Positions 45,074-61,455 of a stretch of 64,000 nt of DNA are shown here, in pieces. Each line of letters opens with the position of its first letter. The first letter of the stretch is position 1. The DNA lies in assembly GCF_032051675.1 (NCBI RefSeq), contig NZ_CP116968.1:2728001-2792000 (forward strand), written 5' to 3'. The stretch is from Candidatus Nitrospira neomarina. GTDB lineage: Bacteria; Nitrospirota; Nitrospiria; Nitrospirales; UBA8639. A program made the position numbers and the translations under genes. The notes under the pieces were generated by a model, which saw only the letters and a program-made list of their open reading frames with translations, was not told where the DNA came from and searched no databases.

Positions 45074-46294
45074 ATGTTACGTTCAATTTTCCTGGACGCG
45101 CTCAAAAATCTTTCAGGGAACGCGCTTCGTTCGGGGCTTACCATGTTGGGAGTCATTATTGGCGTCGCCGCGGTCATTACCATGATTGCCATTGTTGAGG
45201 GCGGACAAGTCTGGCTGGTGAATTCTCTTGAGCGCATGGGTACCAATTTGCTGTTTGTCTGGAAAAAGCGGTTGACCGTTGAAGAACGGCAGCTCTTTGC
45301 GGGGAGAAATACCGAACTCCGTTATGACGACGCTCTGGCCATTCAAACACGTTTTCCGGATCTGGTTGTTGCTCCCATTATTGAGCTGGATGGTCAATTA
45401 AAAGCGGGGGATCGTGACTACAGCGGCCGAATCACCGGCACTTCTCCCGAATATAGCCAGATCCGGAACTTTCGCCCCGAATCTGGACGATTTGTCTCAT
45501 CCATCGACATCAAGGAATGGAACCGTTCCGTCGTATTAGGTCATACCATTGCCGAAGTGTTGTTCGGATCCCAACCCGCCATCGGAGAGGGCGTAAAAAT
45601 CGGCGATCAACGATTTACGGTAAAGGGCATCATGGAGCCCAAGGGGGAGATTTACGGGCACGATTACGACGAAATGGTGATCATTCCTATCAGCACGGGC
45701 CTGCGCTTTTTCCAGGGATCCGACAAAATCCGATCTATGATCATTCATGTGCCTGACCGGCAGCGCATGGATGAAATCTCCCAGGCACTGCATCAATTTC
45801 TGGTTCAACGTCACGAAGGGGTAGACGACATTCATATCCGGAATCAGGGAGAATTTCTGAGTGCGGTGGACCAAACGCTGTTAACCTTCCGGCTTGTTCT
45901 GGGAGGCATTGCGGTGATTTCCCTCCTTGTTGGCGGCATTGGCATCATGAACATCATGCTCGTTACCGTCACCGAGCGAACCAGGGAGATTGGGCTACGA
46001 AAAGCCATAGGGGCCAGGCGGCAGGATATTCTGTTGCAATTCCTCATTGAGTCCACGACCATTAGCGTGATTGGCGGATCCATTGGCATTCTTGTGGGCA
46101 TTCTCGCAGCCTATGGCATTGGGGATGTCGTCGCTCGGGCCATGCCGGGTGGAGGAGACTGGGGAGCAGTGGTTCAGCCGACCGCCATTGCCATTGCGTT
46201 TGCCTTTGCGGTCGTCGTCGGAGTGGGATTCGGTCTCTTTCCCGCCATGAAAGCTTCGAAACTGGAGCCCGCCGAGGCCTTGCGTTATCAATAA
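45074..46294 (+). CDS. MacB-like ABC transporter permease
   Basis: About 406 residues: LRSGLTMLGVIIGVAAVITM in the first membrane helix, a periplasmic MacB-type domain of about 200 residues (NTELRYDDALAIQTRFPDLV), and three C-terminal helices with LLVGGIGIMNIMLVTVTERT, REIGLRKAIGARRQDI, and the final FGLFPAMKASKLEPAEALRY. These are the type VII permease hallmarks. With its partners it probably exports a peptide, lipid or drug; the cargo cannot be read. ATG 45074 is used. Confidence 0.92.
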   Translation: MLRSIFLDALKNLSGNALRSGLTMLGVIIGVAAVITMIAIVEGGQVWLVNSLERMGTNLLFVWKKRLTVEERQLFAGRNTELRYDDALAIQTRFPDLVVAPIIELDGQLKAGDRDYSGRITGTSPEYSQIRNFRPESGRFVSSIDIKEWNRSVVLGHTIAEVLFGSQPAIGEGVKIGDQRFTVKGIMEPKGEIYGHDYDEMVIIPISTGLRFFQGSDKIRSMIIHVPDRQRMDEISQALHQFLVQRHEGVDDIHIRNQGEFLSAVDQTLLTFRLVLGGIAVISLLVGGIGIMNIMLVTVTERTREIGLRKAIGARRQDILLQFLIESTTISVIGGSIGILVGILAAYGIGDVVARAMPGGGDWGAVVQPTAIAIAFAFAVVVGVGFGLFPAMKASKLEPAEALRYQ

Positions 46295-46299
46295 GTTTC

Positions 46300-46318
46300 A
46301 GGAGTGCGCTCCTTTTTT
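46300..46318 (+). terminator. Terminator after the exporter operon
   Basis: AGGAG (46300-46304) pairs with CTCCT (46309-46313) around TGCG and is followed by a T-run. A short but plausible intrinsic terminator, just after the permease stop. Confidence 0.6.
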
Positions 46319-46358
46319 ATCTGGAATCCGCCACACCGTCCATGACCATTGCCCAGCT

Positions 46359-47054
46359 GTGATACCTCAGAAAGAACGAGCCGCAGGATTAGCCTTCCTC
46401 CCGATCTTCACCACTATCGGATTTTACCTCTTACCCCCAAACTGGCAACTCCACCCGGTCGTCCAGTTTGTTCCACAACTGATGGCTTATGCCGCCTTGT
46501 GCGTCTGGGCTTATAAAAATGAGGATCTCCGGCACAAACTTGGGCTAGGATTCAACCACATCCAGTCAGGGGTTACCCGAGGGACTGCGGTTGGCCTCAT
46601 GCTGGGTCTATTCAATACCGGGATCATCTTGTACGTCATGCCTGCTTTGGGAGTGGACATCAATTTTCTCTCTCAGACCCCTCATGCCCAGGTTCCGTTT
46701 TGGATCATGATGCCTTGGTTCATCATCCTGATTGCTATGACCGTGGAATTGAATTTCCGGGGATTTCTCCTGGGCCGATTACTGGTATGGTTTCAACATG
46801 TGCGTCAACCCGTTCACCCCTCGACCACCAGGATTCGCCTACAGGCCTTCCTCCCCTTATCCCTATCAGCCCTGACGTTTTCATTTGATCCCTTCATGGT
46901 GTCGACATTCCGTGATTTACATTGGATTGCCGTATGGGATGGCCTGGTGTGGGGATGGCTATGGATGCGCATGCACAATCTTTATACGGTCATAGCCGCT
47001 CATGCCGTGGAAGTGATTCTTCTCTATCTCATCATACGGGGAATATTGACATGA
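46359..47054 (+). CDS. CPBP-like membrane protease relative
   Basis: 231 residues, six to seven hydrophobic segments, with TVELNFRGFLLGRLLVWF matching the CPBP family motif 1 (usually EExxxRG); here the first Glu is Val (VELNFRG). A second motif reads FSFDPF where the family has FxxxH, and the third could be NLYTVIAAHAVEVILL. CPBP proteins are intramembrane proteases or immunity-type proteins; with the missing glutamate this copy may not be active. GTG start. Its TGA overlaps the next ATG by four bases. Confidence 0.65.
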   Translation: MIPQKERAAGLAFLPIFTTIGFYLLPPNWQLHPVVQFVPQLMAYAALCVWAYKNEDLRHKLGLGFNHIQSGVTRGTAVGLMLGLFNTGIILYVMPALGVDINFLSQTPHAQVPFWIMMPWFIILIAMTVELNFRGFLLGRLLVWFQHVRQPVHPSTTRIRLQAFLPLSLSALTFSFDPFMVSTFRDLHWIAVWDGLVWGWLWMRMHNLYTVIAAHAVEVILLYLIIRGILT

Positions 47055-48058
47055 CACCCTCGTTCTCTCCTCACCTGGTAAATCATCCCTTTGGAGACCC
47101 CGGCCTCTATGTCGATATACGGTGGAGCCGGCGTGCTCTTCTCTTTGACCTAGGGGATAATATGCCCTTGAGCCCAACCCAGCTTTTACGGGCGCAGGAT
47201 ATTTTCATCTCTCATACGCATATGGATCACTTTATCGGGTTTGATCGGCTCATTCGTGTAGCCCTGGGTCGTGGCAAACATCTTCGATTGCATGGTCCAC
47301 CGGGCCTTATTGAAAATATTCAAGGCAAACTTCGTGGGTATACCTGGAATCTGGTTGATGGATATCCGCTCACCATCGAGGCCAGGGAATATCACCCTAC
47401 CCATATTCAACCCGCGCATTTTCATGCGAAGAACGCCTTCGCCTGTAAACGGGAATCCATAATCCCAGGCGATCATTCTCACGTTTTTCCGGTTCTTCAA
47501 GAGCCGGCTCTTCTCGTAAAAGCCGTCGCACTCAACCATCGGATCCCTTCCCTGGCCTTTTCCCTGGAAGAACCCTTTCACATCAATATTAAGAAAGCCC
47601 GACTTCATGAGGCAGGGCTTCCGGTTGGCTCCTGGCTTAAGGAAGTTAAACAATTAATCGTAGATGGCGCCCCGGATTCCCACATCTTTTCCGCCACAAT
47701 TTATGTTGAGCACCGAAAAGAAGAACGCGTATTTGATGTAGGCACCATGAAGCGAGAATTTACGACCATCACCAAGGGGCAAAAAATCGCTTATGTCGTT
47801 GATTGCCGATATGATACCGACAATGAGCAGCGGATCATTCAATTATGCCAAGGGGCCACAACACTATTTTGCGAGGCACCCTTTTTAGAAGTCGACCGGG
47901 ACAAGGCTGCCAATCGCTACCACCTCACCGCTCGTCAAGCCGGAATCCTTGGACGAAAGGCCGGGGTACAACAATTGATCGTCTTTCATTTTTCTCCCAG
48001 ATATACCGGGCAGGGAGACAAACTTCACCGGGAGGCCATGGAAGCCTTCCATGAGTAG
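47051..48058 (+). CDS. Metallo-beta-lactamase-fold (RNase Z-like) hydrolase
   Basis: 335 residues from ATG 47051: ALLFDLGDNMPLS, FISHTHMDHFIGFDRL with the HxHxDH zinc motif, VKAVALNHRIPSLAFSLEEP, AYVVDCRYDTDN (metal Asp) and QQLIVFHFSPRYTG near the end. This resembles RNase Z/tRNase Z. It has no N-terminal signal. Coupled to the CPBP-like gene. The substrate is not established, since related phosphodiesterases exist. Confidence 0.82.
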   Translation: MTPSFSPHLVNHPFGDPGLYVDIRWSRRALLFDLGDNMPLSPTQLLRAQDIFISHTHMDHFIGFDRLIRVALGRGKHLRLHGPPGLIENIQGKLRGYTWNLVDGYPLTIEAREYHPTHIQPAHFHAKNAFACKRESIIPGDHSHVFPVLQEPALLVKAVALNHRIPSLAFSLEEPFHINIKKARLHEAGLPVGSWLKEVKQLIVDGAPDSHIFSATIYVEHRKEERVFDVGTMKREFTTITKGQKIAYVVDCRYDTDNEQRIIQLCQGATTLFCEAPFLEVDRDKAANRYHLTARQAGILGRKAGVQQLIVFHFSPRYTGQGDKLHREAMEAFHE

Positions 48059-48085
48059 TAATCACACATGACACGAGGAGGGACG

Positions 48086-48427
48086 ATGTCGGAATGGGTC
48101 AGATATGGGTTGTACTTTGTCCTGGGTGGAACATTAGTGAGTGTCTCAACCTATCTGGGAAGTCATGGGAGAGGGTTCCTGGCTGCCTTGGCCAGCACTC
48201 TGCCGGTCATCAGTGGAGTGACCTTTATCCTCATCTTCATCAATGCCGGATCGGCTCCAACCATTTCATTTGCCAAACACATGATTTGGCTTTCTCCCCC
48301 ATGGTTTATGTATGTGGGAACGATGATTGCGTTTGTCCCCAAGTTAGGATTTTGGCCGGCATATGGGTTGGCCATCGGGATATACTTGGCGGGAGTAGGG
48401 TTGACCCGACTATTACTTACCTCATAG
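48086..48427 (+). CDS. Small membrane protein, DUF3147/GlpM-like
   Basis: 113 residues with about four hydrophobic helices (YGLYFVLGGTLVSVSTYLG, FLAALASTLPVISGVTFILI, MIWLSPPWFMYVGTMIAFV, AYGLAIGIYLAGVGLTRLLL). This resembles the DUF3147/GlpM family of unknown function. ATG 48086 has GAGGAGGG just before it, better than the upstream ATG at 48068. Confidence 0.6.
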   Translation: MSEWVRYGLYFVLGGTLVSVSTYLGSHGRGFLAALASTLPVISGVTFILIFINAGSAPTISFAKHMIWLSPPWFMYVGTMIAFVPKLGFWPAYGLAIGIYLAGVGLTRLLLTS

Positions 48428-48502
48428 AGACACCTGGAATTGGGCAATCAGGATAGAAGAGCCTTTAGATAATTATGTGGGCAGGTATAGAAGACGAATA
48501 AT

Positions 48503-48922
48503 ATGGGAGAATTCATCAAACCGATCATCCACGCATTTTTAGTGTGTGACACCATTATCATTGATAGTCTGACAGGGAAAAAAAGCATCATCGGGGCCTT
48601 TACCCATCTCTGGGCCAAGACATTTCCATGCCAGCACCCACAAGTCGGCGTGTATTTTTCGCTCACCGATGCGGAAGGCCGGTACGCATTCGAAATCCAA
48701 CTGGTGTACCTTGATCAAGATCAGATTGTCGGCAAGGGTTCCCTCCCGCCAATTGACATTTCCAACCGGTTAACGACCCAGGACTTCGGCGTGAATATCC
48801 CGTATCTCGTGTTTCCAGGGCCTGGACGGTATGAGTTTCGTCTGTATGCCGATGGTCATTTCATTACCCAAAAGGACTTTCAGGTAATTCAACAAGAAAC
48901 TTCTCCGAAACCCCCGTCATAA
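48503..48922 (+). CDS. DUF6941-like hypothetical protein
   Basis: 139 residues with an N-terminal KPIIHAFLVCDTIIIDSLTG and later SIIGAFTHLWAKTFPCQHPQ, YLVFPGPGRYEFRLYADG. The overall pattern, a beta-sandwich-like small protein, is like DUF6941; function is unknown. It has no signal peptide. Confidence 0.55.
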   Translation: MGEFIKPIIHAFLVCDTIIIDSLTGKKSIIGAFTHLWAKTFPCQHPQVGVYFSLTDAEGRYAFEIQLVYLDQDQIVGKGSLPPIDISNRLTTQDFGVNIPYLVFPGPGRYEFRLYADGHFITQKDFQVIQQETSPKPPS

Positions 48923-49405
48923 GAGAGCCATCCTCTCAGTTAGGAAAAATCAGACCTCTCTTCAGTTTGTGGCAAATTATCGACGTTGAGGAAAAAGTGG
49001 GTGTCCTTCTGCCAGTTCGTTGACTGCGCCCATGTCGGCACCAGCTGGTACGTGTAAGCATTCCGCCATGATGAACGGAGGGGGCGTGGGTGCAGGCTCC
49101 TCTTGTGTAAGAGAGAACCTTAGGACTCATCTTGTCTTGGAATAGACTTCTACTGGACAATTTTTCTAAAAAGACTACAATTGCTGCATCCACTATGATC
49201 TATCCTCTTCATCAATTATGCCATGGGGGGTTTCTGAACAGAAGCGATAGAAAGTCGTTTACACGCAAGATGGCAATGGTGTTATAAGTGGAACGGTTTA
49301 AGCTTACCTGTGGATATGGAATGGCCAACAGTGGGTGAAAGGGCAAAATCGCTGAGTCCCTAACAGGTGGGTAAGGTCAGCAACACAGAGATCAAAGGGC
49401 ATTGA
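48923..49405. other. Left edge of the accessory island
   Basis: About 480 bases without a recognised gene. No attachment-site repeat matching the right edge was seen by eye. Confidence 0.35.
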
Positions 49406-50479
49406 ATGAAAAACCTGGTCAACATATCAGGAGGCGATAACCCTGAGCGCTGTGCCGATGTGGTCTTCGTCCATGGTCTTGATGGGGATGCTCGAACGAC
49501 GTGGCACCCGAAGGAGAGCCCCGACAAGTTTTGGCCAGCCTGGCTAGGTGAGGATTTTCCTGCCATTGGGATCTGGTCGCTGTGGTATGCCGTCAGTTCA
49601 TCCGCATGGAAGGGCACCACCATGCCGCTGATCGACCGGGCGACCAACACTCTAGACCTGTTCGAACTGGATGACATCGGCCATCGGCCGGTGGCGTTCA
49701 TATGCCATAGCCTTGGCGGCCTGTTGGTCAAACAGGCCCTGAGACTGGCTGCCGAATCGAGAAACCCCGCGTGGCGAGCCATTGCCGAGCACGTCGGGCT
49801 CATCGTATTTCTGTCGACCCCGCATTCGGGGGCGGACATGGCAAGCTGGATACAATACCTCGGGAAACTTTTGCGCACCACGGTCACCGTCGAAGAGCTT
49901 GAAGCCCATCATCCCCGTCTGCGCGAGCTTAATGATTGGTATCGGGACAACGTTGAGAGTCTGGGGATTGAGACCTTCGTGTACTGTGAAAAGTTACCCA
50001 CGGCAGGGATACTGGTGGTCAATGAAACCACTGCCAATCCGGGCATCGCTGGGGTCAGGCCAATCCCGGTGGATGAGGATCATGTGTCGATCTGTAAGCC
50101 GTCTTCTAGAGAGGCCCAAATTTACCGAAGGGTCAAACGCCTGATCGAAACGAACCTTCTCAATCGAGGTGTGTCAGAATCTGCAACCACGCAGACCACG
50201 CACGACAACAGGCACAGGAATCGTTCACCCGAACAAGGCCTACCATTCTCCGGGAAAGCAAAAATCGAATTTGGGCGGCGGATGACATCAGATTGGCCTG
50301 AGTTAGCCGACTACTTCGAGATTCCCACAGCCGATCGGGCACGCTTCAAACGGGGGCGCGAACCTCACGGGGTGTGGGAATGGCTGGAAGCCCGATCCCG
50401 ACTGCGGAACTTGCCTGAGGCTCTGCGCGACATCGGGCGCGATGACCTCTTGGAGGAATTCTTCGACCACCCTCAGTAG
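49406..50479 (+). CDS. Alpha/beta-hydrolase with C-terminal EAD-like domain
   Basis: 357 residues. The N-terminal half is an alpha/beta-hydrolase of the PGAP1/DUF676 type: VVFVHGLDGDARTTW (oxyanion region), FICHSLGGLLVKQAL with the nucleophile Ser102, and DEDHVSICKPSSR carrying the catalytic His. Residues 281-357 (FSGKAKIEFGRRMTSDWPEL on) form a helical domain shared with the TIR protein and the nSTAND protein of this island. Such effector-associated domains are known adaptors in bacterial conflict systems. The hydrolase would be the effector, perhaps a lipase or esterase, but its substrate is unknown. Confidence 0.8.
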   Translation: MKNLVNISGGDNPERCADVVFVHGLDGDARTTWHPKESPDKFWPAWLGEDFPAIGIWSLWYAVSSSAWKGTTMPLIDRATNTLDLFELDDIGHRPVAFICHSLGGLLVKQALRLAAESRNPAWRAIAEHVGLIVFLSTPHSGADMASWIQYLGKLLRTTVTVEELEAHHPRLRELNDWYRDNVESLGIETFVYCEKLPTAGILVVNETTANPGIAGVRPIPVDEDHVSICKPSSREAQIYRRVKRLIETNLLNRGVSESATTQTTHDNRHRNRSPEQGLPFSGKAKIEFGRRMTSDWPELADYFEIPTADRARFKRGREPHGVWEWLEARSRLRNLPEALRDIGRDDLLEEFFDHPQ

Positions 50480-50515
50480 GCCCGTCGCGTCCTGGTGCGC
50501 CGGACGCGACGGGCC
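50479..50515. promoter_or_regulatory. 14-bp perfect hairpin at hydrolase stop codon
   Basis: GGCCCGTCGCGTCC (50479-50492) and GGACGCGACGGGCC (50502-50515) form a perfect stem with a 9-nt loop, starting at the last base of the stop codon. No T-run follows, so if it ends transcription it does so imperfectly; it could instead tune the NACHT gene downstream. Confidence 0.6.
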
Positions 50516-50628
50516 CCATCACAACGGCGCAGGGGCGGGAACGACCCTGGCAACACTATTACAAGAAATGCCTCAGGCGCTGGTCGGACCTACGGTATGC
50601 GCTGGACACACGATTCGTTCAGTTAACC

Positions 50629-53145
50629 TTGCTGGTGGATCAAGGAGAGGACACCCAAGGTCCGAGATGGCAAGCGTCAAGTGAGACATTCCAAGGTCTT
50701 CGGGAGGTGCTGGATCGGGTGCCGGAGCAAGCCATCGTGCTCTTGGGACCGCCGGGGTCAGGAAAAAGCACGCTGCTGCGGCATTTCGAGCTGGACGGCG
50801 CTCGTGCTGTGCTTGACGGGACCGCTGAGCATTTCATCACCTCAGCACCACTGACATTCTTCATCCAACTCAATGACTATAAGGCCGACAGCCCCCATGA
50901 TCCCATGCCCGATCCCAAAGACTGGCTGGCCGACCGGTGGGCCGCCCAGTGGCCGAAGTTGCCTCCTTTGGACACCCTCTTGCGGGAACAACGCCTGACC
51001 CTGCTCCTGGATGCCCTCAATGAAATGCCCTATCCCGGCCCGGAACCTGTGCAGCGTTGGAAAGACTATTTGCGCCATCTCGCCCAAGAGCATTCTGAGA
51101 CTCGCGTGGTCTTCTCCTGTCGCAGTCTTGATTACAGTGCCTCACTGTCATCCAACGAGTTTCCAGTCCCCCAGGTACGGATCGAATCCCTGTCCGATGA
51201 ACAGGTCCAAAGTTTTCTGGAGGTCTATTGTCCGGCTCATCACCAAACCCTGTGGGATAACCTTCGGAATTCGCCTCAGCTCGATCTCTTGCGATTGCCG
51301 TACTATCTCAAACTGCTCATCGACCAAACAGCCACCGGAGAGATCCCGGCGGGGCGGGCCGCCCTCTTTACGGGCTTTGTCCGGCAAGCGCTGAAGCGGG
51401 AAGTAGATGGGGACAACCCACTGTTTCAGCCGGGCCGACTATTGGATCACCGGGATCTTCGCCAACTCACACTGGCGAGTGCTGGCAAACAACCATTTGC
51501 CCTGCCTGAACGTGGACCCTTGGTGCCCCAATTGAGCCAACTGGCCTTCTCGATGCAGCACCGCCAACCCGTTCAACAGGAAGTCCCCCATCAGCAGGCG
51601 GGAAGGGAAAGCGGACAAGTGCGGGTGTCATACGATGAGGCGGTGGCTGCCATCGACCATCCCGCTGCGGAAGACATCCTCAATGCCGGTGGGGCGCTCG
51701 GCATGTTGGAAGAAGATTTGGGGCGCCTAGGACAGAATGAGATTCTTTTTATCCATCAATTGGTACAGGAATATTTCGCCGCGCGAAAGTTGGCGCACGA
51801 GCCGAATCCGGAATTGGTGGCCCAGGAATGGCGACAGGACCGGGTGATGCCGAACTTGGCCGACACGATAACCCGGCTGGCCGGTTCCGACCCCCTCCCG
51901 CTGTTACCGACCAGTGGGTGGGAGGAAACGACCATCCTGGCATCCGCCATGGCGGAGCAGCCTGACCGGTTCCTGACCGACATGATGGCCCATCATCTCC
52001 CGCTGGCCGGGCGCTGTGCTGCGCAAGGGGAGGGAACCGTTTCAGACCAGCTCAAGACCACACTCCGTCTGGCCTTGGTGGAAAGAATCCAGGATCCGGA
52101 AGCCGATCTGCGAGCACGTATCGAGGCCGGTCTGACGTTGGGTGAACTGGGCGTTCCCCGGTTTGAGTGGGAGGAAGGACCTGAAGGTCCCTACTGGCTC
52201 CCACCGTTGATCGAAATTCCCGGGGGAAGGTATACCATCGGCAGTGATGAGGGAAAAGAAGAAGACGAGAAACCAGCCCATGAGATCGAGCTGGAACCCT
52301 TTCTGATGGGGCAATTCCCTGTGACGAACGCCGAATGGGCCCTGTTTGTGAAAGCCGGCGGGTATGACGATGAACGCTGGTGGGAGACAGATCAGGCCAA
52401 AGCCTGGCGTCGAGGTGAAACCACCGCCGAGGGGCCGAAGGAGGATTGGCGCTCCTGGCGCAAACGGTTTCATACCAACCCCGAGAAAATTCGTGAGCGG
52501 ATGAACCAAGGACGAATGACGTCAAAAATGGCTGAACAATGGGAAAAATTTGTCCGAATGAACGACAAGCAATTTGAAGCGGCTCTCGAGGAATGTTGGC
52601 CAGCTGGCCGCCAAACCAAACCAGCTTACTGGACTGATGCGAACTTCAATAATTCCCAACAACCCGTCGTCGGCATATGTTGGCATGAAGCCCGGGCCTA
52701 TTGTGCCTGGCTCAGTGCGCAGATAAACGTAGGCTATCGATTGCCCACTGAAGCCGAGTGGGAAGCGGCAGCCAGAGGTTTCCCAAGACGTCGCTTTGCA
52801 TACGGAGATGAGTTCGATGCGGTCCGGTGCAATTCGTTTGAAACGCACATTCGACGGACCACACCCATTGGTGTGTTCCCAGGAGGCCGAACCCCGGAGG
52901 GCCTCATGGACATGACCGGAAACGTCTGGGAATGGACCAGCAGCCTGTATCAACCCTATCCTTACCAATATCCCGATGGACGTGAAGTTCCCGTCACCGG
53001 GGCAGGCCGTCGAGTCCTGCGGGGCGGGTCATGGTACGATAACCAGAACCTCATGCACGCTACGTATCGCGGCAAGAGTCGTCCCGATGGCCGTTACAAC
53101 CTCATCGGGTTTCGGGTGGTGCGGTCGTCCCCCATCTTTTCCTGA
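50629..53145 (+). CDS. NACHT NTPase with C-terminal FGS domain
   Basis: 838 residues from TTG 50629. The NACHT NTPase has Walker A GPPGSGKST (40-48) and Walker B LTLLLDALNE (123-132), followed by helical regions (about 200-520) and, from about 527, a formylglycine-generating-enzyme/sulfatase-modifying-factor domain: GRYTIGSDEG, MGQFPVTNAEWALF, YRLPTEAEWEAAARG, MDMTGNVWEWT and RRVLRGGSWYDNQN. NACHT proteins are STAND-type sensors that oligomerise on ligand binding. The FGS end is a C-type-lectin-like binding surface and carries the DGR variable region. The frame is open back to 50446 and encodes conserved-looking residues before the TTG, but with no ATG, GTG or TTG. Confidence 0.85.
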   Translation: MLVDQGEDTQGPRWQASSETFQGLREVLDRVPEQAIVLLGPPGSGKSTLLRHFELDGARAVLDGTAEHFITSAPLTFFIQLNDYKADSPHDPMPDPKDWLADRWAAQWPKLPPLDTLLREQRLTLLLDALNEMPYPGPEPVQRWKDYLRHLAQEHSETRVVFSCRSLDYSASLSSNEFPVPQVRIESLSDEQVQSFLEVYCPAHHQTLWDNLRNSPQLDLLRLPYYLKLLIDQTATGEIPAGRAALFTGFVRQALKREVDGDNPLFQPGRLLDHRDLRQLTLASAGKQPFALPERGPLVPQLSQLAFSMQHRQPVQQEVPHQQAGRESGQVRVSYDEAVAAIDHPAAEDILNAGGALGMLEEDLGRLGQNEILFIHQLVQEYFAARKLAHEPNPELVAQEWRQDRVMPNLADTITRLAGSDPLPLLPTSGWEETTILASAMAEQPDRFLTDMMAHHLPLAGRCAAQGEGTVSDQLKTTLRLALVERIQDPEADLRARIEAGLTLGELGVPRFEWEEGPEGPYWLPPLIEIPGGRYTIGSDEGKEEDEKPAHEIELEPFLMGQFPVTNAEWALFVKAGGYDDERWWETDQAKAWRRGETTAEGPKEDWRSWRKRFHTNPEKIRERMNQGRMTSKMAEQWEKFVRMNDKQFEAALEECWPAGRQTKPAYWTDANFNNSQQPVVGICWHEARAYCAWLSAQINVGYRLPTEAEWEAAARGFPRRRFAYGDEFDAVRCNSFETHIRRTTPIGVFPGGRTPEGLMDMTGNVWEWTSSLYQPYPYQYPDGREVPVTGAGRRVLRGGSWYDNQNLMHATYRGKSRPDGRYNLIGFRVVRSSPIFS
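53010..53137 (+). other. DGR variable region VR1 with IMH-like 3' block
   Basis: The last codons of the NACHT-FGS gene (53035-53106) differ from the nSTAND-FGS gene by 27 substitutions over 24 codons, 23 of them in codon positions 1 or 2, a pattern typical of adenine-targeted mutagenesis of AAY-rich template codons. The 33-nt block 53105-53137 is identical to 54840-54872 (other strand), as expected for an initiation-of-mutagenic-homing region. Confidence 0.8.
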
Positions 53146-53160
53146 TCTTCTGGTTTCTGA

Positions 53161-53178
53161 TTGCCGCGTGAGCGGCAA
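53161..53178. other. Hairpin downstream of VR1
   Basis: TTGCCGC (53161-53167), GTGA, GCGGCAA (53172-53178). In known DGRs, a short GC-rich hairpin just after the variable region is needed for target recognition. The same motif follows VR2. Confidence 0.7.
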
Positions 53179-53265
53179 AATGCGGTTTTTGGATAGTTTG
53201 GATTTCATTGTGCCAGTGTAAAATACTCGTGATGCTGGTTTCGGCCAGCGGGGCTCCCTGTGACA

Positions 53266-53447
53266 GGTAGGGTGGCCACGGACCTCCGAAAAAGGAAGCG
53301 GTGGGCGTTGGCCCACCCTACAAATTTGAAATGTTCTGGGTGTGAAACGGAGAGCAACGGCGGTCCCCGGATTGAAAGCCTGACCTTGTCCGTCAATATC
53401 GCAAATGGAGACAATGTCCAGAAATGGTAGGGTGGGCATCGCCCACC
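53266..53447. repeat. REP-like palindromes upstream of RAYT
   Basis: GGTAGGGTGGC (53266-53276), then GGTGGGCGTTGGCCCACC (53300-53317) and GGTGGGCATCGCCCACC (53431-53447), each a GGTGGGC/GCCCACC palindrome with TAGG or CCTA at one edge. Their position flanking a RAYT gene fits REP elements mobilised by RAYT transposases. A degenerate related palindrome follows the gene near 54024-54057. Confidence 0.65.
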
Positions 53448-53457
53448 AATTAGATCG

Positions 53458-54057
53458 ATGCCCCAATATCGACGAGCGAGGATACCCGGTGGAACATATT
53501 TTTTTACGGTCGTAACCTATCATCGTCAGTCACTTCTGGAAAATCCTTTATGTCAGGACATTCTCTGGACGGTTATCCAAGAAGTCAAAACGGAACTTCC
53601 CTTTACGCAGGACGCATGGGTGTATCTGCCTGATCATCTGCACTGCCTATGGACGTTGCCTGAAGGAGACTCCGATTACTCCAAGCGCTGGGGATTGATA
53701 AAAGCGCGATTTTCGAAACAGGCCAAAGGGCTTATGAAGGAAAACCGTGGGCTAGGAGTTTCTCCCGGTAAGAAGCGCGAAGCGGCAATTTGGCAGCAAC
53801 GGTTTTGGGAGCATACCATTCGCGACGAACATGATCTTCGGAGGCATCTGGACTATATTCATTACAATCCTTTGAAACATAGATTGGTCGAACGAGTGGA
53901 GGACTGGCCACATTCGTCATTTCATCCGTTAGGAAAGGAATGTATCCTATGGATTGGGGAGGTAGAGTCGTTTTACCAGATGTTGAAGATTTCGGAGAAT
54001 GAAAAAATGTTTTGGGGATCAGATAGGGCAGGCATTGTCCACCAATTTGGCCGGTGA
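53458..54057 (+). CDS. REP-associated tyrosine transposase (RAYT)
   Basis: 199 residues of the IS200-like Y1 HUH superfamily: YRRARIPGGTYFFTVVTYHR, the HxH motif in WVYLPDHLHCLWTLPEGD, and the catalytic-Tyr motif LDYIHYNPLKHRLVERVEDW, all in usual RAYT order. RAYTs bind REP palindromes and are domesticated or mobile single-copy transposases. REP-like palindromes lie on both sides. The insertion lies between VR1 and the reverse-transcriptase remnant. Confidence 0.88.
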   Translation: MPQYRRARIPGGTYFFTVVTYHRQSLLENPLCQDILWTVIQEVKTELPFTQDAWVYLPDHLHCLWTLPEGDSDYSKRWGLIKARFSKQAKGLMKENRGLGVSPGKKREAAIWQQRFWEHTIRDEHDLRRHLDYIHYNPLKHRLVERVEDWPHSSFHPLGKECILWIGEVESFYQMLKISENEKMFWGSDRAGIVHQFGR

Positions 54058-54150
54058 GTATTACCCACCATTTCATACAGTCCGAGGGAAGCCAAGTGCA
54101 CTGCAGACTGCTTCCACCGGTTCTTTTGTGACGCACTTCCTTTTTCATGA

Positions 54151-54612
54151 GTTGGCTGTGGAAAAAGCCGGTGGGGTACCGGGTATCTACGATATGTCGA
54201 CGATCTGGCGCTGTTCAGCGACCACGCACGTGACTTGTGGGAGTGGAAACAGGCAATCAGCGAACGCCTGGCCATGCTCAGGCTGACTCTGCATCCCCTC
54301 GCCCAAGTCAGCCCGACCAGGCACGGCATCCCCTGGCTCGGGTTTATCGTGTATCCAAACCACCGTCGAGTGAAAGCCCGCAATTTGCGAAACTTTCAGC
54401 ATCAACTACGGGACCGCTGGCAGGAGTATTGCGAAGGCCACATCACCTTTGCTGAATTTAACTCTAACGTTCAGGGTTGGATCAACCATGTCCGTTATGC
54501 CAACACCTGGGACTTACGCCGACATGTGTTGGCACAGCCCTTGTTGAAGCCAACTGCTACGAAACATGCACGCAATGCGGGGTACCCGCGCTTGAATGAG
54601 ACAATTGAATAA
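54151..54612 (+). pseudogene. C-terminal fragment of DGR-type reverse transcriptase
   Basis: 153 codons from just after a stop (TGA 54148-54150) to 54612. The frame encodes [14 protein letters not shown] with the YVDD active-site motif (54193-54204), [38 protein letters not shown] and [20 protein letters not shown], the hallmark C-terminal part of DGR reverse transcriptases. About the N-terminal half of the polymerase is missing. No start codon or ribosome-binding site precedes the motif properly; the first ATG in frame is after the catalytic site. The RAYT/REP unit may have removed the 5' part. Confidence 0.82.
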
Positions 54613-54671
54613 TTCGAAATTCTTTCAATGCCGGTTGGCTTTGGCATATTCCAAGAATTCTCAATAGCAAG

Positions 54672-54795
54672 AGGGAATGTTCAAAATGGCCGGTCCAGCA
54701 AGACCGCAGGGCTTTTGGCGCGCGGAGCGTACAGAAAGTACGTGAGCACGACAAAAGATCGAGAACGCCGCTGGCGGCATTTTTCAACATTCCCT
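54672..54795. repeat. Inverted-repeat intergenic element
   Basis: AGGGAATGTT (54672-54681) and AACATTCCCT (54786-54795) bracket a 124-bp element with internal hairpins such as CGTAC-AGAAA-GTACG. Miniature GC-rich inverted-repeat elements of this style recur in genomes of this type, but I see only this copy in the window. Confidence 0.55.
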
Positions 54796-54799
54796 GAAT

Positions 54800-54815
54800 T
54801 GCCGCTTACGCGGCA
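54800..54815. other. Hairpin downstream of VR2
   Basis: TGCCGC (54800-54805), TTAC, GCGGCA (54810-54815); read on the minus strand it is TGCCGC-GTAA-GCGGCA, like the hairpin after VR1. It lies 16 bases past the nSTAND-FGS stop codon, matching the 15 bases of VR1. Confidence 0.7.
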
Positions 54816-54831
54816 CCCCGTGAGCAGGAAG

Positions 54832-57210
54832 TCAGGAAGAGATGGGGGACGACCGCACCACCCGAAACCCGAGGCGGTTATTACGGTAATCGGGACGGGC
54901 GCAGAAGCGAGACGTGGCGAGCGCGTCGAGCTGGTGATTGAGCCAGGACCCCCCACGCAGGACACGCGAATTCTCGGTCGCACTATTCATCTCCTTTTTG
55001 GGGTTCTCGGATTCGTTGAGGCACCATTCCCAGACATTCCCGCTCATATCCAGAGCCCCCATGGATGATTGGCCCTGAGGATACAGTCCCACGGCTGTGG
55101 TGCGGGATAGGCCGCTTTCAAAGGTATTGGCGAACTCAGGATACCAATCTTTTCCCCAGGGATAATGATTGGCTGACTGACCTCCAGTGGCCGCCTGCTG
55201 CCATTCCCACTCCGTCGGGAGCCGAATCTCATACCCTACTCTGTGGCTCAACCACCGGCAAAACACCATCGCATCGTACCAGGACACATTTTCTGCCGGA
55301 TGGTTGTCTCGCGTTCGATATTGGTTCCCTGGTTCTTGTTCTCTCCCGGCTAACCCTTTCCACCACTTTTTCCAGCGATAGCCATCCTGGGCTTCCAGAA
55401 AACTCCGGTACTGCACCCAGGTGATCGGATAGCGGCTGATAGCGAACTCCTTAACCGTGAAGGTCCCCCCGTTGTCTTCCAGCGTGATCTTTCCCGGAGG
55501 GACCTCACACCATTTGAGGACCGGGAGGCCATCGGCGTTGAGGCCAACCCCCTCTCTGTGGTCCCCAATGTCAGCCAGGCGATCGCCGATGATGGCACGT
55601 TGTTGGGGTGTGGTGGCCGGATTGTCAATGTTCTCCAGCAGTCGATCGGCTTCGGAGCGGATGAATGCCTTCTCGGGGTCTGTCAATTCCGGCTGCAACC
55701 GTTCACGCATGTGATGGACAGGCTTTAACCGCTCATGACGCCACAAATTCGCGTCGGGGCGTCCCTGCCGTTCCCACTCCGCCGCGTCCAGCCTGACCTG
55801 CCGCAACAGGCGAAAATCATCGAAGCGCGCCTCGATCCACTCATGGAGACGCGGCCAGTTGGTCAATAACGCTTCATGGGCCACTTCCACAACTTCTTCT
55901 CCGCCAGGAGCATCGCTTCCGACAAACAGACGGGCTTGGGTAAATGTGTTGACCAACGCGTTCGCAGCCGGGGAGTCTATGAAACGACGAGAGGGTGCTC
56001 GTTTTCTGGTGGGGACACCGCACTCTGGATCAACCTCCACTAATTCCTTGAACACGTTACCAAACGCGGTGCGGGTATCCTGATCCAGCTCCCCATAGGC
56101 CGTGTCGGCACGTTTGGCAATGGCTCCTCGTACTCCTCCAAAGCTGTCATAGGCGGAGTCGGTCATAATAGTGGAGGGTTGGCAGGCGCGATACAATTCC
56201 GCCAGGGCAAACGCCATAAGCGCCAAGGCTCCCGGCTCATCTCCGGTATCTTCTAGGATGCGCCAGGGAAGTCCCTCATCAAAGGATACGCCCGCTAAAG
56301 AGGCCGGCCCGGTAATCATCACATAGAGAGCCCGTTTGTCCGGTGCCGCCAACGAAAACATCCCGTCATTCAGCAATGTTTCTAGTGACCGGTGTTTCAG
56401 ACAATGCGGGTAGAAATCGGCCCGCAGGGTGATCACGGTGCAAAGCTGCGGTATCTTTGTTGCTTTCTCCAGCATGGCCAGAAACTGATGGTGATGTTCG
56501 GGCTTCGTTCGAGTAAACAGTTCTTCGAATTGGTCAATGAAGAGGAACAGTTTTCCTTCCGGGCGACCTTTCAGGATCCGGTCGGCGTACTCGGTGAGAT
56601 CCCCTCTGGCGCGTAATTTCACCGCGATGTCCTTGTCTCGTTGGCCATGCTCCACCAGTCTTTGGTCGAGCCTGGATGCCAGTGCCATAAAGGGATCCTC
56701 GAAAATCCCAGGGGTGAACCGCACGCACTCCCACTGAAACCCACCGGCAATTTCTTCAAGACGTGGGATCACCCCCGCGGCAATCAGGGAGGACTTGCCG
56801 GAACCGGAGGCTCCCACGATGGCCAGAAAAGGGTTCTTGGACAGTTTGTCCAGTAGGGCCCTTGTCTCCCGTGCACGACCAAAGAAAATGGGAGCCTGGG
56901 CTTCGGTAAAGTGGCAGAGCCCTGGATAGGGTGATCCCTTCCAGGTCACCTGCTGCGGGGTCTTGGGAGGGGCAGGGGGTTCGAAAACCTGAAGCACGAT
57001 ATCTTCACGGTCAATGTGACGCAAGGCATCCGGGAGTTGATGGAGTTGATTGCGGACTTCTGCCCATTCCCAGATACGTCGTGGTTCATTCCCCTGTGGA
57101 AATGTTCGTTGTGTATCAGATGGAATATCGAGATAGGCTGCAACCTTCCACCAGTCATCCCCCAGACACTCACAAAATTTCAATTTTTGTTTGCCGGAAT
57201 ACTGTGCCAC
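54832..57210 (-). CDS. EAD-nSTAND NTPase with C-terminal FGS domain
   Basis: 792 residues from GTG 57210. Residues about 1-80 are the EAD-like domain (YSGKQKLKFCECLGDDWWKV, AAYLDI), 133-141 Walker A GASGSGKSS, 221-230 Walker B LFLFIDQFEE typical of nSTAND1, followed by a helical region and, from about 560, the FGS domain (TVKEFAISRYPITWVQYRSF, RLPTEWEWQQAATGG, LDMSGNVWEWCLNESENP, RVLRGGSWLNHQ). The GTG at 57210 is chosen because the upstream open frame overlaps the TIR gene. It would be the sensor, with the EAD recruiting EAD-bearing effectors (TIR or hydrolase). Confidence 0.82.
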   Translation of the reverse strand: MAQYSGKQKLKFCECLGDDWWKVAAYLDIPSDTQRTFPQGNEPRRIWEWAEVRNQLHQLPDALRHIDREDIVLQVFEPPAPPKTPQQVTWKGSPYPGLCHFTEAQAPIFFGRARETRALLDKLSKNPFLAIVGASGSGKSSLIAAGVIPRLEEIAGGFQWECVRFTPGIFEDPFMALASRLDQRLVEHGQRDKDIAVKLRARGDLTEYADRILKGRPEGKLFLFIDQFEELFTRTKPEHHHQFLAMLEKATKIPQLCTVITLRADFYPHCLKHRSLETLLNDGMFSLAAPDKRALYVMITGPASLAGVSFDEGLPWRILEDTGDEPGALALMAFALAELYRACQPSTIMTDSAYDSFGGVRGAIAKRADTAYGELDQDTRTAFGNVFKELVEVDPECGVPTRKRAPSRRFIDSPAANALVNTFTQARLFVGSDAPGGEEVVEVAHEALLTNWPRLHEWIEARFDDFRLLRQVRLDAAEWERQGRPDANLWRHERLKPVHHMRERLQPELTDPEKAFIRSEADRLLENIDNPATTPQQRAIIGDRLADIGDHREGVGLNADGLPVLKWCEVPPGKITLEDNGGTFTVKEFAISRYPITWVQYRSFLEAQDGYRWKKWWKGLAGREQEPGNQYRTRDNHPAENVSWYDAMVFCRWLSHRVGYEIRLPTEWEWQQAATGGQSANHYPWGKDWYPEFANTFESGLSRTTAVGLYPQGQSSMGALDMSGNVWEWCLNESENPKKEMNSATENSRVLRGGSWLNHQLDALATSRFCARPDYRNNRLGFRVVRSSPISS
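54840..54962 (-). other. DGR variable region VR2 with IMH-like 3' block
   Basis: The end of the nSTAND-FGS gene mirrors VR1: the identical 33-nt block at 54840-54872 (minus strand) preceded by 24 codons with the same AAY-type variation. Upstream of them the GTCCTGCG..GG..GGGTC-TGG stretch is also nearly identical to VR1, differing only at third codon positions. Confidence 0.8.
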
Positions 57211-57227
57211 GAGTGGGTGGTCCCTTC

Positions 57228-57986
57228 TTACTTTGCTCCGAGTCGGTCGGCTAAATCTGCCCTTTCGATGGCCGCCAGGGCAGGCAGCAGTTCCGGTAGC
57301 CGCTGGCGGTTCTCTAACCACACCCAAATTCCGCGACCTTCGTCTCCTCGCTCGAACCGCGCCTGGTCTGCTGGACGGATGTGAAGGTAGTCGGCCAAGC
57401 GCTTCCAGTCGTCTCCCAGACCGTCACAAAAGGCAATCTTGGCTTTGCCGGAAAATCTGTTTCCTGGGGACTGGATTTGAGCCACGCCTTGGACACTTTT
57501 GGTCTGGGGACTGGTGGGGTTTGGTACATTTTGACGAATTTTGGTGACGAGTTGCCGCATGTGTTCCCGAATCTCCAAAAACAGTCTTTTGCGGCGGCCG
57601 GGATCTTGAAAATGTTCCTCGACGGTCTGGTCGCCGGCAGGCAGAAATTGACGACTCGCCAACCAGGCATGCCGACGCCATTCGCAGGCAGAGAGGATAA
57701 CGGGAATCAGATGGGTTGTTCTCTGCAGGAAGCCTTGGATCTCGACATCCTGGCAGTATGGCGAATCCAGAAAGCTCTGGCTGACCAGCACCAGTGCCAT
57801 ATCCGATTGTTGGATATTGGTCTTCACCACCTCATCCCACAATTCACCGAGAAGAATCTGGCGATCAGTACAAAAGACGACCTGGTCCCGCTCCAGTCCC
57901 TTAAGAAAGCCAAACAGAGAGTTGTCCTCAAGATAGCCGGCATCCTTGTGACTGTAGCTTACAAAAATTTTTATGGTCCGGACCAC
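57228..57986 (-). CDS. TIR domain protein with C-terminal EAD-like domain
   Basis: 252 residues from GTG 57986, with AAAGGAG upstream. The TIR domain spans about 1-135: IKIFVSYSHKDAGYLEDNSL, FCTDRQILLGELWDEVV, VLVSQSFLDSPYCQDVEIQG, with E82 in the position of the catalytic Glu of NADase TIRs. Residues 178-252 (FSGKAKIAFCDGLGDDWKRL, ADYLHI) are the same EAD-like domain as in the hydrolase and the nSTAND protein. A bacterial TIR of this kind is expected to consume NAD or make a signal nucleotide when clustered. It ends 18 bases before the chosen start of the EAD-nSTAND gene. Confidence 0.85.
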   Translation of the reverse strand: MVRTIKIFVSYSHKDAGYLEDNSLFGFLKGLERDQVVFCTDRQILLGELWDEVVKTNIQQSDMALVLVSQSFLDSPYCQDVEIQGFLQRTTHLIPVILSACEWRRHAWLASRQFLPAGDQTVEEHFQDPGRRKRLFLEIREHMRQLVTKIRQNVPNPTSPQTKSVQGVAQIQSPGNRFSGKAKIAFCDGLGDDWKRLADYLHIRPADQARFERGDEGRGIWVWLENRQRLPELLPALAAIERADLADRLGAK

Positions 57987-58521
57987 ACTTGTCTCCTTTG
58001 GATAGCTATTCCAATTTGAGGTGACGCCACGAATTGTATCGAAATTTTTTAATGATGGGAATGGAGTTCGGGACTATCCTCTGAATGCTCCATGTCCCCT
58101 GGGCTTTGCGACCCCCTCTTCTCTTTGAGAGAAGTCAGTCGGGTCGACTAGACAGTGATACACGGGAGAGAAAAATCAAAAATTGTTTGCCCTGGGCCCG
58201 GACAAGCCCATGACACGAATTCCGGCCGTCCCCTCAACCGAACCGTTGGGCTGTAGGTATGAGTTAAATGCACGATCTGTGAATTGGAAAATATCCGAGA
58301 TGAAAAGACGGTCATCTATGACGAACATTCCATAAACATGAACAACCAGTTGCACCGGTCTTATATAATCTTTTCTCCTCTGGTGATTGATATTTCTTCC
58401 TCACACACCGATGAACTAACCGGGTTAGTTGGTGCAGTCCTTGAACAACGGTATGGGATAGCCGGCAACCCGACATACGGAATTTTCCATGACAAAATTG
58501 AAACTTGCCTTAGGAAGGGAC
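57987..58521. other. Intergenic at right edge of the island
   Basis: About 530 bases with no well-supported gene. A TTG-started frame at 58284-58538 has no family resemblance and is not annotated. Confidence 0.35.
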
Positions 58522-59463
58522 ATGGGCATGGACATTGATCATCTACCATACTGGAAACAACATCTACGTTTTTTTATCTTACCGATTCTCTTGTTGATCG
58601 TGCCTGGCATGGTCCAAGGCCAGGTGGTCGGGGATGGATACAACAACAGCCTGATTTACAAAATCCAATCTGAGACGAATACCGTCTATATTTTGGGATC
58701 GATCCATGTGTTGGCCGAAGAATACTATCCTCTCACCAGGTCCTTCTCCTATGCCTATTACAATTCCCAAAAAGTCGTCTTTGAAATTGATCCGGAAATA
58801 TTATTTTCTCCCGATTCATTTTCTCAACACGAAAAACAGTACACCCTCCCAAAGGGTAAAACACTGGAAACGGTGCTCTCCCCAAAAACTTATGGGCTGG
58901 TCAAACAGAAGATTCAAGCCTTGGGAGGGAACATTCAGGATTTCCAACAATACAAACCCTGGGTGCTCTATCTCACGTTAAGCGGACGATTGGATTCTTC
59001 CATAGATTTCCGGCCTGAATTAGGAATTGAAAATCATTTCTATCGCATGGCCAAGGATGCCGGAAAACCGACGGGCGGGCTGGAAACCATTCAAGACCAA
59101 TTGAATGTGTTCGATACTCTTCCGTTCAGCATTCAAGATGCGCTTCTTCAGGAATCACTCGCTGCCGCCGGTTCAAAGGAACGAGAACAAGCGTTTTTAC
59201 ATATGGTGAAAGACTGGCACCAGGGAAATCTCAACGGGTTGGAACAATTGGTGGAGTCATTCAAAACCTACCCGCTGTTCTATAAAAAACTTCTCGTCCA
59301 ACGAAACCAGAACTGGATTCCCCAAATCGAATTGTTCCTACAAGAGGAGAAAAACGTTTTAATTATTGTGGGTGCGGCTCACCTCGCGGGACAAGACGGA
59401 TTGCTCGCGCTGCTGAGAGAAAAAGGCCACCAGGTTGAACGCGTGTCGTATGCCATGCCTTAG
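58522..59463 (+). CDS. TraB/GumN-family protein
   Basis: 313 residues from ATG 58522, with AGGAAGGG just upstream. After a hydrophobic segment (FFILPILLLIVPGMVQG), the GumN/TraB core shows VYILGSIHVLAEEYYPLTRS, VVFEIDPEILF, RPELGIENHFYRMAKDAGKP and VLIIVGAAHLAGQDGLLALL, the latter with the conserved GAAH/H metal motif. TraB/GumN proteins are putative metalloproteases related to the Tiki family. Probably envelope-located. Confidence 0.82.
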   Translation: MGMDIDHLPYWKQHLRFFILPILLLIVPGMVQGQVVGDGYNNSLIYKIQSETNTVYILGSIHVLAEEYYPLTRSFSYAYYNSQKVVFEIDPEILFSPDSFSQHEKQYTLPKGKTLETVLSPKTYGLVKQKIQALGGNIQDFQQYKPWVLYLTLSGRLDSSIDFRPELGIENHFYRMAKDAGKPTGGLETIQDQLNVFDTLPFSIQDALLQESLAAAGSKEREQAFLHMVKDWHQGNLNGLEQLVESFKTYPLFYKKLLVQRNQNWIPQIELFLQEEKNVLIIVGAAHLAGQDGLLALLREKGHQVERVSYAMP

Positions 59464-59485
59464 AACAGTACAAGAGTGTCCCGCG

Positions 59486-60298
59486 TTAGGGCCGATCAGC
59501 ATCCACCATGCCCTTTCGGGCTATCCAATCAATGATCTGCGGGCTCATCAATTTCATCCACCGGCCCCACTGGCCTCTCAAGGACGTAAACACCAGTCGT
59601 TCCCGCCGGGTCATCCCCTTTATAATCATGTCCGCACATTTCCTCGCGGTTAAAAATCTGGCATGTCCTTCGAGAACTCGCCCGAACGGTTGACCATGAG
59701 GCCCGATACTTCGTTCATGAATTTCGGATTGCACAAAATCGGGGACCACAATGGTGACGGTGACTCCCGTCCCTGCCAGCTCAATGCGAAGCGACTCAAA
59801 AAATCCGTTCATCGCATGCTTACTGGCACAATAGGCTGAATGAGCAGGCACTCCCGTCAAACTTGCGACGCTGGAGATTGCCACAATCCGGCCTTGCGCG
59901 GCCTTTAAGAACGGCAACGCCAATTTGGTACAGTACACCCCTCCGAAAAAATTCACTGCCATTACGCGTTGATACAGCTTCACGTCATGAGCATCCTCCA
60001 CCGTCGACCACATGGATATCCCGGCATTATTTACCAACACATCAATTCGGGAATACCGAGTCACGACCTGTTGGATCATCGCGGAACAGGCATGGGGATC
60101 CGTCACGTCCGTCGGAATGACCAGTGCCGAGGCTCCCAGGTTTTCACAGGCGAGCGCCACCTCCTGCAAACGTGCCCGATCTCTCGCGACAAGCACCAGC
60201 TGGGGAGCCTGTGGCGCCAACGAACAGGCGAGCGCTTTTCCTATACCCGAAGACGCTCCGGTGATGAGAATCACCTGGTTTGTAAATTCACTCATCAT
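59486..60298 (-). CDS. Short-chain dehydrogenase/reductase
   Basis: 270 residues: N-terminal ITGASSGIGKAL (NADPH site), NNAGISMWSTV, VAISSVASLTGVPAHSAYCA with catalytic Ser and SxYxxxK (AHSAYCASKHA) near 145-165. It ends with a membrane-interacting basic segment (RLVFTSLRGQWGRWMKLMSP). The substrate is unknown. It is convergent with TraB and stands alone. Confidence 0.88.
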   Translation of the reverse strand: MMSEFTNQVILITGASSGIGKALACSLAPQAPQLVLVARDRARLQEVALACENLGASALVIPTDVTDPHACSAMIQQVVTRYSRIDVLVNNAGISMWSTVEDAHDVKLYQRVMAVNFFGGVYCTKLALPFLKAAQGRIVAISSVASLTGVPAHSAYCASKHAMNGFFESLRIELAGTGVTVTIVVPDFVQSEIHERSIGPHGQPFGRVLEGHARFLTARKCADMIIKGMTRRERLVFTSLRGQWGRWMKLMSPQIIDWIARKGMVDADRP

Positions 60299-60405
60299 CC
60301 TTCCCTCAAAATTTCGAAAGGGGATGGACCCTATTGACAGATTTTTTTAACGAGCGTAGCATTACATCTGAGCTCATGAAAAACGATTATGAAAGGAAGG
60401 AGAGA

Positions 60406-60519
60406 ATGAGCGTACATCTCCTTTCAAACCGTAAAGAGGAAAGGGGGTCTCATATGGACGACCTTACTCCACCGGATCATGTAGGCCCATCGGCGGCGAA
60501 ACCCGCCTCAGTCTCCTGA
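60406..60519 (+). CDS. Small open reading frame, uncertain
   Basis: 37 codons from ATG 60406 with AAGGAAGGAG upstream; the product begins SVHLLSNRKEERGSH and is not recognised. An alternative ATG with GAGGAAAGGGGG before it lies at 60454. Both are too short to judge by composition. Confidence 0.25.
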   Translation: MSVHLLSNRKEERGSHMDDLTPPDHVGPSAAKPASVS

Positions 60520-60743
60520 CGGGCCTTCTCGTTTTCGCCGAATCATATCCCTACTCAAACACAAGCACGCCTAAGGGCATCTGCCAGCGGGAAATGCACT
60601 GAGCTTGATGATAATGAGTCACAAGAGGGATCCTCAACCTTCACATCTGGAAGATTCGGCCAACCCTTAACGAGGAACGCGTCATTAGCCTACTGATGGG
60701 CCACGTTGAACATGAGGTTCACATTTTGTGGTGTATGCCACAT
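60520..60743. other. Gene-free segment ending in a terminator
   Basis: About 220 bases with no coding frame, followed by a strong plus-strand terminator; it might encode a small RNA. Confidence 0.3.
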
Positions 60744-60790
60744 AATCCGAGGGGCTCCCTTTCAAGGGACAAGCCCCTCGGATTGTTTTT
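60744..60790 (+). terminator. Strong intrinsic terminator
   Basis: AATCCGAGGGGCT (60744-60756) and AGCCCCTCGGATT (60772-60784) form a 13-bp perfect stem, with an inner CCCTTTCAAGGG palindrome, then GTTTTT. The U-run is on the plus strand. Confidence 0.85.
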
Positions 60791-60858
60791 GATGCCGGCG
60801 CCACAATCGGATAACCATTCTTCACACCTTCTTCCACTCAAACCCGTGACTTTCTAAT

Positions 60859-61455
60859 ATGAGCATCCCTTCTATCCGCTTTCACCCATATCGTCTTGAG
60901 TTACCAGCCTGGGTCGCCGATTACCTTGTCCAACAACCGGAGACCTACCCGACTCAGGATTCCCGTATGGACCTGGTCATTAAGCTTGCGCAACTCAACA
61001 TTCAATATGGAACCGGGGGACCATTTGGAGCAGGGGTGTTCCGCTTGGACACTCAAGAACTGGTCGCGCCTGGAGTGAATCTCGTCCTTTCGTCAAAAAG
61101 TTCAATGGCCCATGCTGAAGTTGTTGCGATACTGATGGCACAGCAACTGGTGGGCTCTCATAATTTAGGAGCAACCGGATTTCCCACCCACGAGTTGGTC
61201 ACCAGTTGCGAGCCCTGCTGTATGTGCCTGGGCGCGATTTCCTGGTCCGGCGTTCGGCAAATTGTCTGTGGCGCCAGAGGGGGCGACGCCGAAGCGGTTG
61301 GTTTTGACGAGGGCCCCAAACCTGCCAATTGGATTGTGGAACTTGGGCTGAGAGGGATTGCCGTGACCACGGATATTGCGCGAGGCAAGGCCGCGTCTGT
61401 CCTCCAGCAATATGTTCAAAACGGCGGAGTGGTGTATAACGGCGGGAAAGGGTAG
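60859..61455 (+). CDS. CMP/dCMP-type nucleoside deaminase
   Basis: 198 residues with the zinc deaminase signature: SSMAHAEVVAIL (HAE; metal ligand plus proton donor) and TSCEPCCMCLGAISWSGVRQ (PCxxC). It resembles guanine deaminase/tRNA-adenosine-type deaminases in the core, but the N-terminal 50 residues are extra. The substrate is not determined. Confidence 0.85.
   Translation: MSIPSIRFHPYRLELPAWVADYLVQQPETYPTQDSRMDLVIKLAQLNIQYGTGGPFGAGVFRLDTQELVAPGVNLVLSSKSSMAHAEVVAILMAQQLVGSHNLGATGFPTHELVTSCEPCCMCLGAISWSGVRQIVCGARGGDAEAVGFDEGPKPANWIVELGLRGIAVTTDIARGKAASVLQQYVQNGGVVYNGGKG

Follow-up and report, generated by a model that had tools for sequence, protein, structure and literature searches.

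A probable remnant of a diversity-generating retroelement, with a RAYT/REP unit in place of its missing parts, between two STAND-type genes of Candidatus Nitrospira neomarina

Diversity-generating retroelements (DGRs) acting on STAND sensors have been described in Thiohalocapsa PB-PSB1, together with degenerate loci and diversification in trans (Dore et al. 2024, PMC10907252). According to the same report, DGR components decay through the action of transposons and MITE-like elements; for the truncation of DGR reverse transcriptase (RT) genes by transposons it cites an earlier study. Neighbourhoods with STAND-FGS and TIR proteins that each carry bDLD3 have been described as well (eLife 2021, PMC8195603). 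Here we examined a window of 64,000 nucleotides from Candidatus Nitrospira neomarina (contig NZ_CP116968.1, positions 2,728,001 to 2,792,000; coordinates below are those of the window), in which the remnant of a DGR RT and a REP-associated tyrosine transposase (RAYT) lie between two STAND-type target genes. As in Thiohalocapsa PB-PSB1, machinery is missing or pseudogenized beside C-type-lectin targets on STAND NTPases (nSTAND1 or NACHT). Thiohalocapsa differs in retaining one complete locus per class elsewhere in the genome, with trans activity inferred for some loci, whereas the chromosome studied here holds neither an RT nor a template, and the element at the locus is a RAYT/REP unit. A degenerate DGR is an already published kind of locus; what is distinct here is that no complete copy is left in the chromosome. 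We consider it highly probable that this DGR has decayed by loss of the accessory gene avd, the template and part of the RT, leaving two frozen variable repeats (VRs) while the STAND/TIR targets and effectors were kept.

A DGR RT profile of 365 positions, built in this analysis from nine RTs of relatives, gave one significant match over the whole window. Profile positions 227-355 aligned from 54181, exactly at YLRYVDD, with an E value of about 1e-39, and the first 226 positions were unmatched in any frame; the remnant corresponds to the C-terminal third of the enzyme. It also matched PHROG 1423, reverse transcriptase (E 1.5e-23). The first-pass annotation had described the interval 53458-54612 as an RT truncated to its C-terminal YVDD part, which the profile bears out. 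Within that interval the RAYT extends to 54057, the segment 54058-54180 is unassigned, and the remnant occupies the rest; the start at 54235 in the program-made list of open reading frames is a TTG internal to the remnant. A frameshifted 5' half of the RT within 54058-54180 was rejected, as the profile gave it no support. Since no other frame of 52900-55200 matched the profile, an upstream start cannot restore the RT N-terminus, the outcome that the annotation had named as able to overturn its view. An RT without everything before YVDD cannot be active and, as all of this is gone, neither can the remnant.

Both target genes retain intact frames and converge on the RT remnant. Comparison of their 3' ends revealed a 26-codon core with 12, 11, and 4 differences at codon positions 1, 2, and 3, respectively, while the constant flanks showed 0, 1, and 4 differences and the upstream FGE domain 91, 78, and 124. 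The differences between VR1 and VR2 fell at 17 of the 26 adenines but at only 10 of the 52 other bases of the template of a related DGR (L018, see below; Fisher p = 8e-5), and they also tracked the adenines of two further independent templates (p = 1e-4 and 5e-4). The adenine-patterned repeats at the 3' ends are followed at both targets by a constant block and a GC-rich downstream hairpin. Over their last 42 nt the two genes show two mismatches, and the 33-nt block singled out previously is real. An initiation of mutagenic homing (IMH) motif and a downstream hairpin are cis elements of DGRs, with loops that are usually GRNA (PMC4372165); the loops found here, GTGA and GTAA, fit GNRA instead. 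The ends of both target genes are true DGR variable repeats.

A scan of genome contigs with the RT fragment returned two relatives, an Accumulibacter locus (L017, 59% identity) and a locus in a metagenome-assembled genome of Halieaceae (L018, 47% over the fragment); IMG/VR yielded no RT relatives. The Halieaceae locus is an intact DGR: its RT is full-length, and beside a template it has three VRs, which carry 15-20 mismatches at adenines versus 0-2 at other bases. It resembles the locus studied here in having STAND-type targets on both sides and a GFRVV 3' block, and differs in possessing the full RT, the template repeat and an Avd-sized gene, and in carrying its targets on the same strand. 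Its order of target, small Avd-sized gene, template, RT, and target assigns the lost components to the position of the RAYT here. More distant relatives on cyanobacterial plasmids (37-39% identity) have FGE targets, avd, and RT annotated close together. These relatives also bear on the idea that the fragment derives from a retron, a group II intron or a defence RT, with the similarity of the FGE tails due to ordinary gene duplication. A weak NCBIfam match to a group II RT (E 7.3e-6, well short of the cut-off) and weak PADLOC matches to UG RTs could be read in that direction, but the best relatives are RTs that adjoin DGR templates and VRs (L018, L014, and L016) or are annotated by avd and FGE genes, and the differences between the VRs track template adenines, not third codon positions. 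A non-DGR origin is scarcely credible.

Some of the related loci showed irregularities of their own. In two genomes of the same genus the DGR RT reads in two frames, covering profile positions 1-140 and 133-353 in one (L015, genome G002) and 77-329 and 112-199 in the other (L016, genome G016), the latter with template and VR kept; these RTs, too, may have decayed or acquired frameshifts, or the assemblies may contain errors. In L017 (1-641 and 2047-2595), the Accumulibacter RT appears to lack part of the middle before GLPIGNLTSQ, and less than 2 kb from it lies a RAYT 47% identical to that of the window. An Ideonella dechloratans plasmid (L044) carries two DGR-type RTs and two avd genes in tandem, adjoining an integrase gene.

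The remaining DGR components were sought in the window and in the genome, a single contig of 4,796,525 bases with a completeness of 98.22%; the genome search was a loose first look. An Avd profile, run against the window and not the rest of the genome, found no match in 52900-55200 or elsewhere in the window. No template-like segment was present in the window, in agreement with the first-pass annotation on both counts, and a template finder that recovered the templates of L014, L016, and L018 returned nothing on 48000-60000. Genome-wide, VR1 DNA matched only VR1 and VR2. Since VR2 was easily recovered (E 4e-26, 75% identity), a template of like identity would have been seen. RVT_1 had no match in the genome and the RT fragment matched only itself at E up to 10, so a full-length DGR-type RT was found neither at the locus nor elsewhere.

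These searches bear on the annotation's two explanations, decay that froze the variable ends or a second DGR acting in trans. The joint absence of avd, template, and RT 5' half favours the former, and the search for an intact RT and template that had been proposed as a check found neither. Because the chromosome holds no RVT_1 match, second RT relative or template, trans action from it on the targets is unsupported. The RT and template could instead reside on a replicon that the assembly lacks and still diversify the targets, much as incomplete loci of Thiohalocapsa PB-PSB1 are reported to be diversified in trans (PMC10907252), and the VRs, their 3' blocks and the hairpins here look undamaged. 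Against this, the single-contig genome is empty of such parts and RT fragment matches in 60 relatives never exceeded 37% identity; we regard trans diversification as very unlikely. Against decay, the assembly, at its stated completeness, may lack a plasmid, and the loose genome search may have overlooked a template of great divergence, though one that different would hardly be able to serve these VRs.

The RAYT matched NCBIfam NF047646 with an E value of 7.8e-58 and 194.5 bits (cut-off 80), and three palindromes adjoin it, confirming the earlier placement of a RAYT with repetitive extragenic palindromic (REP) sequences at the expected site. Its GC content is below that of the flanking target genes. 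As in other RAYT/REP units (NF047646), a single-domain RAYT adjoins GGTGGGC...GCCCACC palindromes; the unit differs in that the genome has no further RAYT and that the REP palindrome searched for (GTAGGGTGGGCATCGCCCACC) occurs at one place only, allowing up to 2 mismatches. Repeats such as REPs can misassemble, and an intact RT could exist with the RAYT/REP region misjoined. However, with the RAYT single-copy and the REP at one place a repeat-driven misjoin is unlikely, and no RT 5' half exists elsewhere in the genome (RVT_1 without match), which makes an assembly artefact highly improbable. The possibility that the RAYT is entirely foreign to the genus was ruled out, since in a sister genome (G002; L046, contig C33, position 2062) a RAYT with 68% identity lies close to the same 22-nt REP at a different site.

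Between target 1 and YVDD, the present locus contains the RAYT, the REPs, and approximately 0.4 kb of unassigned sequence, where relatives carry Avd, the template, and the RT 5' half. This position suggests that one event probably took all three, which is the simplest reading. Ancestrally, target 1 would have been followed by Avd, the template repeat and the RT, with target 2 beyond them in the opposite orientation; a single deletion or replacement could have cost the locus Avd, the template and some 60% of the RT, with the RAYT and its palindromes now in place of the lost part. The RAYT may have been the agent of the loss or a later arrival in an already broken locus. With no template and no active RT there would be no mutagenic homing, and both VRs are probably frozen at their last state. 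The targets and effectors, all still open, probably continue to function in defence as a STAND/TIR conflict system of fixed specificity. It is conceivable, if unlikely, that the loss was selected and not neutral, the RAYT/REP replacement having held two antigen sensors to specificities that were of use, and the lineage keeping the frozen STAND/TIR system as a fixed immune receptor, much like one fixed in a germline.

Alignment of the flanks with nine sister loci placed the end of the left flank at 48896-48906 and the start of the right flank at 58553-58614, defining an island that is present here and absent in the sister genomes (Table 1). In seven aligned sister loci the flanks are approximately 0.4 kb apart, with an unrelated spacer that is conserved among these loci. 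Because sister species lack the whole island at this site, it was probably acquired horizontally. The comparison with sister strains that had been suggested as a check could be made, and showed an empty site; sister species were ruled out as carriers of an intact copy there, and none can display an uninterrupted RT. The target genes have a GC content of 57-58%, versus 50-51.5% in the flanks. No tRNA was found in 46000-61000, and tRNA-associated integration was rejected. The segment 54678-54800, which separates the RT remnant from target 2, contains a dispersed repeat with 68-77% identity to repeats that lie within or close to the region of the empty site in sister genomes (L028, 4287-4451; L029, 1-94; L037, 3337-3460).

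Table 1. Features of the island and its broken DGR, in window coordinates.
Feature	Position	Strand	Basis and remarks
Island, present here, absent in sister genomes	about 48907..58552		Flank alignments; boundaries vary by tens of bases
Alpha/beta-hydrolase (DUF676/PGAP1-like) with C-terminal bDLD3	49406..50479	+	Pfam; open frame, 357 aa
Target gene 1, NACHT STAND NTPase with C-terminal FGE/C-type-lectin domain	50629..53145	+	Pfam; intact frame, 838 aa
VR1 core	53032..53109	+	Differences from VR2 by codon position and L018 template adenines
VR1 constant 3' block, IMH-like	53110..53145	+	Ends at stop codon; 1 base differs from VR2 over the last 36 nt
Hairpin downstream of VR1	53161..53178	+	7-bp stem, TTGCCGC-GTGA-GCGGCAA
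REP palindrome 1	about 53300..53317		GGTGGGC/GCCCACC
REP palindrome 2	about 53428..53448		GTAGGGTGGGCATCGCCCACC
RAYT	53458..54057	+	NF047646; sole copy in genome; GC 47.3%
REP palindrome 3, imperfect	about 54025..54045		Within 3' end of RAYT frame
RT remnant, C-terminal part of DGR RT	54181..54612	+	YLRYVDD to stop; motifs before YVDD absent
Hairpin downstream of VR2	54798..54816 (approximate ends)	-	TGCCGC-GTAA-GCGGCA, read from sequence
Target gene 2, bDLD3-nSTAND1-FGE	54832..57327	-	Pfam; intact frame, 831 aa
VR2 core	54868..54945	-	Comparison with VR1
TIR domain with C-terminal bDLD3	57228..57986	-	Pfam; PADLOC ThsB1 E 4.5e-14; open frame, 252 aa

The island contains, in order, hydrolase-bDLD3, NACHT-FGE, RAYT, the RT remnant, bDLD3-nSTAND1-FGE, and TIR-bDLD3. 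Pfam assigned bDLD3 to both a STAND-FGE protein and a TIR protein of this neighbourhood, and the stretch 49406-57986, with its three bDLD3 proteins (hydrolase, nSTAND1-FGE, and TIR) and NACHT-FGE, has the composition of a bDLD3/STAND/TIR conflict island. Fusions of alpha/beta-hydrolase to bDLD3 are also among the described bDLD3/STAND-FGS/TIR systems (PMC8195603); here, in contrast, a third bDLD3 protein (the hydrolase) and a second FGE protein, of the NACHT type, stand around a broken DGR.

As a broken DGR, the locus is a further well-defined example of an ordinary kind of decay that is already in the literature. As a DGR-tuned conflict system, it is one in which targets and effector genes have outlived the entire diversifying machinery; its anatomy is clear, the site is empty in sister species, and it offers a chance to test whether such sensors work with fixed specificity.
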